A DNA stretch of 53,127 nucleotides, taken from positions 1 to 53,127 of IMG/VR virus record IMGVR_UViG_3300030116_006303; one strand, given 5' to 3'. The position numbers and the translations under genes are program-made. Shown piece after piece: positions 10,146 through 13,728 of this stretch (positions within the stretch are counted from its first letter, which is position 1; each line of letters starts with the position of its first letter). This stretch comes from a virus. The notes under the pieces are model-generated. The model had not been told where the DNA came from. It searched no databases and saw nothing but the letters and a program-made list of their open reading frames with translations.

Positions 10146-10679
10146 ATGAGAAAGAAATTCTTCAGAGCTGTCACTTTGGTTATGTTATTTTCGATTTACT
10201 CAAGTACAGCTCTTGCGCAAACTAATACGGTTTCAACGGTAACAAGTGGGACCGTCACTGTAGACAAAACACCACCGACTGCGTCGGCACCGTCGATCGT
10301 AATCAATAACTCTGATGTATGTAAATCAGCGTTTAGTGCTGGTGTTCAAACTCAAATACTTGGTATCGCATCAGGCGTTACCATTACAGATAAAAATTGC
10401 GAAAGACTTAAACTCGCTCGCTCTTTATTCGGTATGGGAATGAAGGTTGCTGCAGTATCCACTTTATGTCAGGATGCGCGCATCTTCGATGCTATGATTA
10501 TGGCTGGTACACCATGTCCTTATAAAGGCAAGATAGGAACCGAAGCAACGAAAGCATGGGAAGAAAATCCTAATGATATTCCTGCCGGTTCTAAAATGAT
10601 GGTGTCTCAGAGGGACGAGGCAAAAGAGGAGGACGCTGAGACCACCGATGACCCTTTTATACAGGAGGATCATCAGTAG
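10146..10679 (+). CDS. Secreted phage protein with possible -1 frameshift extension
   Basis: This encodes 177 residues starting MRKKFFRAVTLVMLF. The ATG at 10146 has AAGGAG six bases upstream. A signal peptide (cleavage near STALA-Q, residue 24) is followed by a T/V-rich stretch, then a conserved-looking core with cysteine positions VCKSAF, NCERLKLAR, LCQDARIF and AGTPCP, and an acidic tail. The protein is exported and probably disulphide-bonded. Similar genes sit before the lysis region in marine T4-like phages. The last codons contain C CCT TTT (10652-10658), a canonical -1 slippery heptamer. Slipping there would add a 67-residue acidic tail ending in a membrane span, for 238 residues in total. 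No known function. Confidence 0.8.
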   Translation: MRKKFFRAVTLVMLFSIYSSTALAQTNTVSTVTSGTVTVDKTPPTASAPSIVINNSDVCKSAFSAGVQTQILGIASGVTITDKNCERLKLARSLFGMGMKVAAVSTLCQDARIFDAMIMAGTPCPYKGKIGTEATKAWEENPNDIPAGSKMMVSQRDEAKEEDAETTDDPFIQEDHQ

Positions 10680-10861
10680 ATGATGGGAATGTTAGCAGTT
10701 CGGATTATGGAAACTTCGATGATGAATACGAGATTTACGCCGAAGAAGAAGAGTTCGATGACTACAGACCTGCCACAGTACTTGCGGGTGTTGCTATATT
10801 GGGTGTTGGTTGTTTCTTCACTAGCGGCATTGCTTGTCTTGGTATACCCTTCTTATTCTAA
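10652..10861 (+). other. Overlapping -1 frame with membrane-anchor tail (candidate frameshift product)
   Basis: The frame is open from a TGA at 10649-10651 to TAA at 10859-10861. Its first 45 codons contain no ATG, GTG or TTG. The slippery heptamer CCCTTTT lies exactly at its 5' end, in the right phase of the upstream gene. The encoded tail has an acidic region (NFDDEYEIYAEEEEFDDYRP) and then a Gly-rich hydrophobic span (ATVLAGVAILGVGCFFTSGI). It overlaps the signal-peptide region of the next gene in another frame. The composition looks like a real protein, not a chance frame. Expression is unproven. Confidence 0.45.
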
Positions 10862-12278
10862 TGCAGCAGAGGGTGACGAGACTCGTACAACGGTATCAGA
10901 AACAACTGAAGTGGAGCAACTCGGTGGAGGACTTGAAGAGCACACAACTACAACTGTAGAAGACGTAGTAACCGAGGGTGCTCAGGAAACTACTGGTAAC
11001 TATCTTACGAATCCAGGTTTCCAGACCGGCAATACGAACGGTTGGGATAAGAGTGGCTCGGTTAAGGTCTGTGCCACGTGTGGACCCTTTGGTGGTAAAG
11101 CACTGCAGACAGGACCCGAGACCGCAGGAGGTACAGTAAGTCAGACCGTAGATCTCTTTGATAAAATGAATCAGCAGGAGATCAATGAAGGTTTCACTAT
11201 CAACTACGGCTCTCACGTTTTCTCTGATCAGTCAAATGCAACCGTTCCAGCATGTGATTCAGATCCTGCTAATGGTCCGGATTGTCGTGATTCATTTAGC
11301 ATTACACTTGATATCAAAGACTCAAGCGGTACATTACTTCATAAGTTCGAACACGAGTTTAAAGAAATTACTTTCACGGGCTGGAATACCACAGACTTTT
11401 TCTTTAACTCAACGGTACCAGAAAATACATACACGAGTGCTCTTGCAACACTTGAGTTGTTCGGTATCGATGCAGGATTTCCGAACGGACACTTCGGTCC
11501 AGCATTTGATAATGCAACGATTACTACAACTCATACGAATATGATAGTCGAGCAGATCACTACGATCACTACGGAATTGATACAGACGGCGATAGAAACG
11601 ATAGAGGATACTACAACCATAGAAACAACTGATGTGGTTGAAGTTGAAACATCAACAGAACCCGAAGTTGTAGAATCATTCGAGATAACCGTGTCAGATA
11701 ATTTTGGAGAAACTATTGACAATTTTGAGATTTCAATAGATAATAATATGGAGATAACTATTGAACCAATAGGTCCTGAGTCAACAGAGACAACCGTTGA
11801 AGTAGAAACAACGGTGGCTGAAGTCGAGAATCAGATCGAAGCAGAAGTCGAGGTAAACAATGATACCGGAGATACCGAACCAACTGATACTGCCTCTGCA
11901 GATGCCGAAGAGCCACAAGAGGAAAGTGGAACCGACGAGCAAAAGCCAGAGCCAAAAACAGCATCAAAACCCAAGGCAAAGTCTGAAGTACGAAAAGCAG
12001 AATCCAAGGAGCAGAGGAAGAAAAATATCGCTACTCGTGTAGTGACTAAGATCATATCGAAGCTCGGTACTGATGCAGCCTCACAGGCAACACAACTCGC
12101 ATTGATGAATGCAATCGGTGCTAACTTATCAGCAGCCGCACCAAATCTTCAGGATGCATCAGCATGGTATGCATCTTCACAGTTACCAGATAATGTAATA
12201 AGCGACCCATCCGCTGTTCTATTCAGTTCAGCACAGGACAGTATTATGAACAGTTTAGTAAACAACCAGTATAAGTAA
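10680..12278 (+). CDS. Large secreted protein with E/T-rich linker
   Basis: This encodes 532 residues from the first ATG at 10680, 11 bases after an AGGAGG; ATGs at 10722 or 10758 are alternatives. A signal peptide spans about 35-63 (YLRVLLYWVLVVSSLAALLVLV, then SNA-AEG). Residues about 105-280 begin YLTNPGFQTGNTNGWDKSG, resembling a carbohydrate-binding or jelly-roll module with paired cysteines (CATC, CDSD...DCRD). A long E/T/V-rich low-complexity linker follows, then a basic stretch, then a C-terminal domain ending SLVNNQYK. That domain is typical of virion-associated proteins of marine T4-like phages. The protein may be exported or be carried on the virion. Function not known. Confidence 0.75.
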   Translation: MMGMLAVRIMETSMMNTRFTPKKKSSMTTDLPQYLRVLLYWVLVVSSLAALLVLVYPSYSNAAEGDETRTTVSETTEVEQLGGGLEEHTTTTVEDVVTEGAQETTGNYLTNPGFQTGNTNGWDKSGSVKVCATCGPFGGKALQTGPETAGGTVSQTVDLFDKMNQQEINEGFTINYGSHVFSDQSNATVPACDSDPANGPDCRDSFSITLDIKDSSGTLLHKFEHEFKEITFTGWNTTDFFFNSTVPENTYTSALATLELFGIDAGFPNGHFGPAFDNATITTTHTNMIVEQITTITTELIQTAIETIEDTTTIETTDVVEVETSTEPEVVESFEITVSDNFGETIDNFEISIDNNMEITIEPIGPESTETTVEVETTVAEVENQIEAEVEVNNDTGDTEPTDTASADAEEPQEESGTDEQKPEPKTASKPKAKSEVRKAESKEQRKKNIATRVVTKIISKLGTDAASQATQLALMNAIGANLSAAAPNLQDASAWYASSQLPDNVISDPSAVLFSSAQDSIMNSLVNNQYK

Positions 12279-12283
12279 AAACG

Positions 12284-12523
12284 ATGGATTTATTAATAGC
12301 ACACTGGCATCAAATACTTTTCGTAATGGGAATCATTGTAGTGGCAGTACGTTTAGAGTCTGAAGTAAAGAACTTGAGAAAAGATGTAGATCAAATGCAA
12401 AAAAGAGATACGTACGTTGAAACGGTAAAGTTAAGAGCAGAAATGGATGTACAGAACAAACAGGTATCTGCACTTTGGGATTTTTGTAACAAGCTCAGAG
12501 AAAAGTTCAACGGGCACTCATGA
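12284..12523 (+). CDS. Small membrane-anchored coiled-coil protein
   Basis: This encodes 79 residues. One N-terminal span (HQILFVMGIIVVAVRL, about 8-23) is followed by a charged helix (ESEVKNLRKDVDQMQKRDTY...). It starts 5 bases after the previous stop, and its own stop overlaps the next start (ATGA). The architecture is common among small proteins of phage lysis regions, such as spanin or holin partners, but no family motif is present. Its place just before a tiny basic membrane protein and the SleB-type hydrolase suggests a lysis or envelope role. Confidence 0.7.
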   Translation: MDLLIAHWHQILFVMGIIVVAVRLESEVKNLRKDVDQMQKRDTYVETVKLRAEMDVQNKQVSALWDFCNKLREKFNGHS

Positions 12524-12659: not shown

Positions 12660-13184
12660 ATGTCTGACGACGACGGCAAAACAGAAGTTGAGTTTGCCGG
12701 GGTCAAGTTTCGAGGTGGGAAGATATTTGTTATTATTACAGCATTGAGTACCCTCGGCGGTGGTCTTTATGCAGGCTTCGAGTTCTGGAAAGACTACATG
12801 GACATGAAAGAAAAGATAGAGACTTATGTAGCACCAGACCTGTCAGAGTTTGATAAGAAGCTAGCGGTGCTGAAAGAGGAGATGACATCTCTCAAGAAAG
12901 AGTTAGTTGTATTTGAAAAACTAGAAGCTAACATCCAAACAATGGCTGAATCTGCTCGTGATGAAGCGAGAGAGATCAAACGAGATCTAAAACGTGAGAT
13001 GGATCACATCGAAAAGACAACCGATGATACCGAGAGGCGAGTCAAGGAAGACAGCCGAGAGTTCGGCAATGCCATCCGTTCTCTGGAGAAAGAAACGGAC
13101 ACACGATTAAAAAATATGGAAAGAGATCTCGACCTGAAGATCAAGAAGGCTCTAAACAATCCACTCAGTGCAATTAGTAAATAG
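12660..13184 (+). CDS. Membrane protein with large coiled-coil ectodomain
   Basis: This encodes 174 residues. A short polar N-terminus (about 20 residues) is followed by one span (KIFVIITALSTLGGGLYAGF, about 21-40) and then an uninterrupted, highly charged coiled coil to the C-terminus. The topology (short N-terminus inside, one span, large outer domain) resembles the T4 holin T, though no sequence similarity can be claimed. It lies just upstream of the cell-wall hydrolase. Alternatives are a spanin-like or virion-associated protein. A good Shine-Dalgarno (AAGGAG) lies 7 bases before the ATG. Confidence 0.75.
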   Translation: MSDDDGKTEVEFAGVKFRGGKIFVIITALSTLGGGLYAGFEFWKDYMDMKEKIETYVAPDLSEFDKKLAVLKEEMTSLKKELVVFEKLEANIQTMAESARDEAREIKRDLKREMDHIEKTTDDTERRVKEDSREFGNAIRSLEKETDTRLKNMERDLDLKIKKALNNPLSAISK

Positions 13185-13227: not shown

Positions 13228-13728
13228 ATGGAACAGGCACTAGCAACACTACTACTTAGCGCATTGTTAATTGGCGGCAATACACCACCAAGCGCATCAC
13301 ACAATCAAATATCTTGTTTGGCAATGAACATATATCATGAATCTAGAGGTCAGTCTATTGCTGGACATCTCGCCGTGGGTCAAGTAACACTCAATAGAGT
13401 AAAAGATGATAGATTTCCAAATACAGTCTGCGAAGTTGTAATGCAGGGACCACACCGTGCATCCTGGAAGGGAACTGGTGAAATGATTCCAATTCGGAAT
13501 AGGTGTCATTTTTCCTGGTACTGTGATGGCAAGTCAGATAAAATTGTAGACGAGGAAGCATATCGTAACATTTACAACCTGTCTCGTATGCTCATGAATC
13601 AGAAGATGATTGACATCACATCTGGTGCCACTCACTATCATGCCTACTATGTAGCACCAGCATGGGCAAAAACCAAAAAACGAACCACTAAAATTGAAGA
13701 TCACATATTTTATAAATGGGAAAAATAA
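13228..13728 (+). CDS. Cell-wall hydrolase, SleB type (endolysin candidate)
   Basis: This encodes 166 residues. The N-terminus MEQALATLLLSALLIGG is a signal or signal-arrest-like segment. NIYHESRGQSIAGHLAVGQVTLNRV is the SleB/Hydrolase_2 signature with its catalytic Glu (HESRG). Later elements, FPNTVCEVVMQ and CHFSWYCDGKSD, are also typical. The enzyme cleaves peptidoglycan and is the only free muralytic enzyme in the window, so it is the probable endolysin. It follows three small membrane proteins and is directly followed by gp33. There is no Shine-Dalgarno before the ATG; the promoter lies directly upstream, so the message may be leaderless. Confidence 0.88.
   Translation: MEQALATLLLSALLIGGNTPPSASHNQISCLAMNIYHESRGQSIAGHLAVGQVTLNRVKDDRFPNTVCEVVMQGPHRASWKGTGEMIPIRNRCHFSWYCDGKSDKIVDEEAYRNIYNLSRMLMNQKMIDITSGATHYHAYYVAPAWAKTKKRTTKIEDHIFYKWEK

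Follow-up and report, generated by a model that had tools for sequence, protein, structure and literature searches.

The gene at 10146 very probably undergoes a programmed −1 frameshift that would yield a soluble and a membrane-anchored form of one exported protein. Comparison with homologous genes carries this reading: a conserved slip site and the tail hidden behind it point to a real signal and not to a chance overlap. Most ribosomes would reach the zero-frame stop and produce a 177-residue protein that is exported and soluble in the periplasm, while at C CCT TTT a fraction would slip back by one base as the tRNAs for Pro and Phe re-pair on CCC and TTT. The slip would append a 67-residue extension past the Pro-Phe pair, made up of an acidic linker and a hydrophobic C-terminal span. 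The resulting 238-residue form would be exported by the same signal peptide and halt in the inner membrane, in a type I topology predicted from hydropathy that leaves hardly any cytoplasmic tail, and would keep some of the domain at that membrane. Since slipping would add the anchor to a fraction of the product, it would set the ratio between the soluble and anchored states of one domain. We infer the translation, ratio and topology of the two forms, as well as a role for the protein in the cell envelope, probably within or close to the lysis module.

The −1 frame in the gene at 10146

The window, by which we mean the whole 53,127-nucleotide stretch that was analyzed, is part of a 73.6-kb virus record and contains T4-type structural genes, a ribonucleotide reductase and other phage genes, named by reading their translations. 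The features of the gene and its neighbors are collected in Table 1.

Table 1. Features of the gene at 10146 and its downstream neighbors, in window coordinates.
Feature	Position	Strand	Basis
Zero-frame gene, exported protein, short form 177 aa	10146..10679	+	Translation; phrog_20531 match
Probable Sec signal peptide MRKKFFRAVTLVMLFSIYSSTALA, cleavage between ...SSTALA and QTNT	10146..10217	+	Inferred by reading the translation
Conserved core domain, residues 43–137	10272..10556	+	Alignments A1 and A3; helical core in model
AGGAGG, 19 bases upstream of the heptamer, possible stimulator	10627..10632	+	GAGG-type sequence near here in 10/11 C-site genes
Slippery heptamer C CCT TTT, in phase with the zero frame	10652..10658	+	Sequence, homologues
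−1 frame tail ORF, 69 codons, PFYTGGSSVDDG...DDYRPATVLAGVAILGVGCFFTSGIACLGIPFLF, part of the 238-aa long form	10652..10861	+	Sequence; purifying selection in relatives
Zero-frame stop TAG, ATG of the next open frame immediately after	10677..10679	+	Sequence
Next gene, large exported protein, ORF 532 aa; probable start ATG 10758 (inferred)	10680..12278	+	Sequence
Hydrophobic C-terminal span ATVLAGVAILGVGCFFTSGIACLGIPFLF, predicted membrane anchor	10772..10858	+	Hydropathy; topology inferred
Endolysin (Cell Wall Hydrolase), neighboring lysis-type cassette	13228..13728	+	PF07486 1.2e-22; PHROG endolysin 2.9e-24

The initial annotation had placed a C CCT TTT heptamer in the zero frame of this gene, with the −1 frame opening right at it, and the positions proved exact: the −1 frame is shut by a TGA at 10649–10651, is open from 10652 and ends with the TAA at 10859–10861. 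It had also stated that the first 45 tail codons hold no ATG, GTG or TTG, which is correct because the first possible start is a TTG at codon 50, within the membrane span. The length given there for the long form, 238 residues, is likewise right (169 + 69).

Taken alone, the window's heptamer is weak evidence, because the window shows no enrichment of the motif and in-phase heptamers turn up in its other genes at a background rate. CCCTTTT is found seven times in the window, equal to the chance expectation, and the other window genes have in-phase heptamers at 37 of 8365 codons (0.44%), a rate that puts the chance of one in the 8-codon overlap at about 3–4%. The comparative data raise the heptamer far above chance.

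Slip site and tail among homologues

Viral contigs searched with the protein yielded 80 loci, three further searches used diverged members, and 11 annotated phage records contributed as well. Together with the window, this made 322 loci, which were reduced to 130 non-redundant genes; three tblastn queries found the same 11 annotated records, or 9 of those. Tails were defined without regard to heptamers, as a −1 ORF with at least 7 nt of overlap with the zero-frame stop, an end within 330 nt and a hydrophobic stretch of 12 residues. By this definition, 82 of the 130 genes had a tail in the −1 frame, whereas only 5 had one in the +1 frame. From the 82, six were set aside as small ORFs with their own ATG and NPYNF or NPYDF ends, representing a different protein.

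The initial annotation had named loss of the heptamer among homologues as a result that would speak against a frameshift. An in-phase X XXY YYZ heptamer is kept in the overlap in 75 of the 76 tail-bearing non-redundant homologues, though not always as CCCTTTT, where the conserved cores of the same genes (7 of 6560 codons in phase) predict 1.2 of 76. A stricter null, in which the amino acids were fixed and the codons resampled from the locus, gave 40.7 ± 3.6 genes with a maximum of 52 in 300 trials, and 2.1 C-type sites compared with the 11 observed; the homologues are related, so these rows are not independent trials, but the types and positions of the sites nonetheless differ. Among eight aligned C-site genes, C CCT TTT is invariant. 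The heptamer is conserved beyond amino-acid need. The sole tail-bearing homologue without any heptamer in the overlap (L034:5387-5551) has a tail whose end is also diverged.

Selection on the tail was assessed by aligning pairs of tails in the −1 frame and comparing the amino-acid changes with those expected if equally many nucleotide changes fell at random. For tails that overlap the leader of the next gene (46 genes, 19 pairs), the O/E ratio was 0.76 in the −1 frame (z −8.8), 0.98 in the next gene's frame (z −0.5) and 1.09 in the third frame; for tails with no overlapping gene (29 genes, mostly of the Mosig branch, 12 pairs), it was 0.71 in the −1 frame (z −4.7) and 1.11 and 0.97 in the remaining two, with kinship among the tails inflating all z-scores somewhat. 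Within the tail, purifying selection acts on the −1 frame alone. Where the initial annotation had considered that homologues might carry stops in this frame, they have an open and selected tail. Common to the tails are an acidic linker, which is DDYxDSDEHE-like in the branch of the window, a span and an FFG(I/V)PxxF-like end. A tblastn search of the phage records with the 69-residue tail alone gave no match; the tail is short, acidic and hydrophobic.

These data also bear on the idea that the frameshift is real but serves translational coupling, with shifted ribosomes stopping near the next start and raising expression of the next gene, and a tail of little function. The layout would suit such a role, as the tail stop lies 3 nt before the ATG of the next gene in the Mosig branch and the zero-frame stop in the window abuts an ATG. 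Selection acts on the tail amino acids, however, with the hydrophobic span and the FFG(I/V)P-like end kept, and other branches have the span in frame, so we consider coupling a very unlikely purpose.

Site types and slippage mechanism

The heptamers are of several kinds: C CCT TTT, C CCT TTA, A AAA AAG and runs of A9–A10. The C sites read GAC CCT TTT, TAC CCT TTT, GCC CCT TTT, GAC CCT TTA or TAC CCT TTA. The codon before CCT thus varies (GAC, TAC, GCC) while always ending in C, and the change from TTT to TTA, Phe to Leu in the zero frame, leaves the −1 codon TTT unchanged; around these sites, the amino acids vary and the slip-competent bases are constant. C and A sites are interleaved on the tree of the core, in which columns are few and many forks weak. 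One homologue (L005) has NDDYPF with a C site, whereas another (L028) has NDDYPG there, an A9 run further upstream and the −1 tail kept, showing that the slip site has moved within the gene while the tail stayed.

C_CC.U_UU.U falls in the class H_HH.U_UU.Y, among the most efficient in E. coli, and C_CCU_UUA is listed among the motifs that shift by >0.1% without a stimulator in that host (PMC4066793). As CCC TTT is not a homopolymer, a slip in the window would have to be ribosomal, the only mechanism that readily applies there. No significant downstream RNA structure was found at the window site (z 0.1 to −0.6), nor was such structure general across the family sites (mean z −0.27). In the cultured Pelagibacter phage Mosig, A AAA AAG is followed by a 6-nt spacer and a 6-bp hairpin, CCGGUG/CACCGG (−11.2 kcal/mol, z −4.55), and L172 has the same heptamer and spacer with a 6-bp G+C-rich hairpin (−10.6 kcal/mol, z −2.71); both have AAGGAG upstream of the heptamer. 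SD-like GGAGG occurs in L200/L202/L215. A GAGG or AGGAGG recurs about 16–23 bases upstream of 10 of the 11 C-type sites (10626–10632 in the window), a distance beyond the reach of the known SD effect. The AGGAGG in the window is a possible stimulator, lying farther from the heptamer than known SD-type stimulators do.

The A-type sites raise the question of transcriptional slippage, in which RNA polymerase would add a base within a homopolymer run, so that the frame is altered in the mRNA and the same products result. Of 62 such sites, 8 are runs of 7, 2 of 8, 48 of exactly 9 and 4 of 10, with G as the next base in 58, whereas the cores of 75 genes have no run of at least seven A. The A9 sites have no general RNA stimulator, and L173/L174 have an A9 run together with a broken form of the hairpin carried by their sisters L082/L172 (A7), which suggests a switch towards transcriptional slippage. 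For relatives with A9–A10 runs, this mechanism is as good as a ribosomal one. A homopolymer of about nine or more A or T is present in 52 of the 62 A-type relatives but absent at the window site (C CCT TTT), and slippage by the polymerase is hard to invoke for the window, for the 10 other C CCT TT[TA] sites or for A7 sites with a hairpin, like that of Mosig. As the explanation for this gene, we rate it very unlikely.

Other branches, gene neighborhood and known systems

Several branches have a short C-terminal span in the zero frame (HTVC115P, L062, L072, L076, L079, L141, L147, L158 and others). Bacterial and archaeal genome assemblies, scanned independently, yielded 29 loci, among them some with an in-frame C-terminal span (L323-L326, L329, L334, L335) and two with an A run and a −1 tail ending KLWISVLSIGLFGVAL (L344/L345). 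The anchor is therefore a recurrent part of the protein, which the frameshift would make optional. Other homologues have no tail at all (L024-L032, L026, L033, L035, L039 and others), so the anchored form would be dispensable in those phages. In L140, L141, L147, L158 and L171, in-phase A-run heptamers lie upstream of an in-frame span and the −1 product ends within a few residues; a slip there would yield the soluble form, the reverse of the window, and chance is a possible cause, because the linkers are mostly Lys-rich. L063:2584-4092 lacks a tail, and its A9 site leads in the −1 frame straight into the next exported gene. A slip there would fuse both proteins, and the arrangement may reflect a deletion or an assembly fault.

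Four phages or contigs have a small membrane ORF (MIWLTIMIIGAAYAIYRINKFADDINPYNF...), unannotated in the records, whose start codon overlaps the homologous gene's stop in an ATGA: HTVC023P (L083:3465-3566), HTVC202P (L084:3408-3521), L222 and L251. It may replace the frameshifted tail there. With such ORFs at an ATGA overlap or an ATG near the stop, the tail in the window might be thought a separate small membrane gene as well, translated by ribosomes that start internally or re-initiate past the zero-frame stop. The ORFs in question, however, have their own ATG, end in NPYNF/NPYDF-type sequences and encode a different protein, while the first possible start in the window is the TTG inside the span and 39 of the 82 tails have no ATG, GTG or TTG ahead of the span. 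A separate gene would also leave the heptamers unexplained, and we hold this reading to be highly improbable.

The open frame of the next gene is the zero frame, resuming directly past the stop of the gene at 10146. A start at ATG 10758 would give that next gene a probable signal peptide, which overlaps the −1 tail. NTN hydrophobic codons shifted by one base tend to remain hydrophobic, so in the 46 genes where the tail overlaps the next gene's leader, the tail could be a by-product of a signal peptide in another frame, with the heptamer there by chance. This is scarcely credible, and it is contradicted by the constraint, which is specific to the −1 frame and not seen in that of the next gene; in addition, 29 genes have the tail without such an overlap, and an in-phase heptamer goes with 75 of 76 tails. 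The overlap of tail and signal peptide, which the initial annotation proposed as possible dual-coding DNA, exists in most relatives as well, although the next gene's frame is almost unconstrained there. In L062, L072, L076 and L079, the zero-frame span likewise shares bases with the signal peptide of the next gene, read in a different frame, and the stop falls close to where that peptide is probably cleaved. Such a hydrophobic overlap is thus more widespread than frameshifting. An assembly error was rejected in view of the many independent contigs, a cultured phage and the differing heptamers. So was a simple indel, a caution that had come with the initial annotation, since relatives with a zero-frame tail are separate lineages with the same architecture, not single-base indel versions.

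The core matches phrog_20531 (8.4e-16 over residues 43–137 in the window; 4e-13 in Mosig), a family of unknown function in PHROG. It has four conserved cysteines, which fits a periplasmic location, and the conserved motifs NCER, GMKVAAV and GTPCP..GKIG (alignments A1 and A3). For the gene at 10146, no Pfam or NCBIfam profile matched above the cut-off and the holin and spanin families of Pfam, NCBIfam and PHROG gave no lysis match, with an endolysin as a close neighbor. A structure prediction, run without three rows from phage records, gave no function, because the mean pLDDT was 64, with only the helical core good (block pLDDT about 80–92), no PDB relative was found by sequence or by fold (best E 3.7 in the fold search) and the BFVD matches were uncharacterized viral proteins.

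Between the exported pair and the endolysin lie two small proteins (12284–12523 and 12660–13184), each with a membrane span at the N terminus and a coiled coil, which are candidates for inner-membrane lysis proteins. A peptidoglycan hydrolase lies nearby in the window and in HTVC033P and, by annotation, in HTVC023P, CRP-207, CRP-810 and ctXG6705; the next gene is annotated as carbohydrate-binding in two relatives. We give even chances to the protein having a role in the envelope linked to the lysis module.

On balance, we favor a broader picture in which a widespread marine phage family would set the ratio between periplasmic soluble and membrane-anchored forms by recoding. Its members would have replaced one slip device by another (ribosomal at C CCU UUU, A AAA AAG with a hairpin, A9 possibly transcriptional) and moved the slip site, with an in-frame anchor in some branches and an anchor overlapping the next gene's signal peptide in many members. 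Annotation misses the frameshifted tail, the Mosig record calling the zero frame only. The series of site types within one gene family makes replacement between ribosomal and transcriptional slippage directly testable. In phages that infect SAR11 and other marine bacteria, this abundant protein has no assigned function, and the anchored/soluble pair offers a way to approach it.

In dnaX, frameshifting truncates the product, whereas in the phage family it would extend the protein with an anchor. As described in a reference cited in PMC3711429, dnaX uses A AAA AAG with an SD and a hairpin, a set also seen in Mosig with its A AAA AAG, AAGGAG upstream and hairpin, and dnaX homologues use either ribosomal frameshifting or transcriptional slippage; in this respect, too, the two appear alike, with homologous genes seeming to use different slip devices. 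IS3 and IS911 follow the same heptamer rules in their −1 frameshifting, most often with A_AAA_AAG or A_AAA_AAA (PMC4066793), but their shifts join parts of a transposase and add no membrane tail. The known programmed frameshifts of dsDNA phages are found chiefly in genes for tail chaperones and capsid proteins (PMC5009743). The open-licence PMC literature yielded no description of frameshifting in these phages, and PHROG, which holds the family of the core, is silent on frameshifting as on function; the signal in this marine phage family thus appears to be previously undescribed. If the reading is true, frameshifting would have a different use here, as a conserved slip that equips an exported phage protein with a membrane anchor.

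The genes for phage tail assembly chaperones (lambda G/GT and their relatives; PMC5009743, PMC10885494) are likewise dsDNA phage genes with X XXY YYZ near the 3' end and a −1 C-terminal extension; their products are non-exported, and they lie beside the tape measure gene. They differ from the present gene, which has a signal peptide, a membrane span in its extension, an exported protein and an endolysin as neighbors, and a match to phrog_20531 in place of a tail-chaperone location or profile match; a G/GT identity was rejected on these grounds. Glycoprotein editing in Ebola virus (PMC5009743) concerns an animal RNA virus and slippage by the polymerase, whereas C-type sites of the phage family would need the ribosome, and there is no homology between the two; in both, a slip site would decide between a soluble secreted form and a membrane-anchored one.
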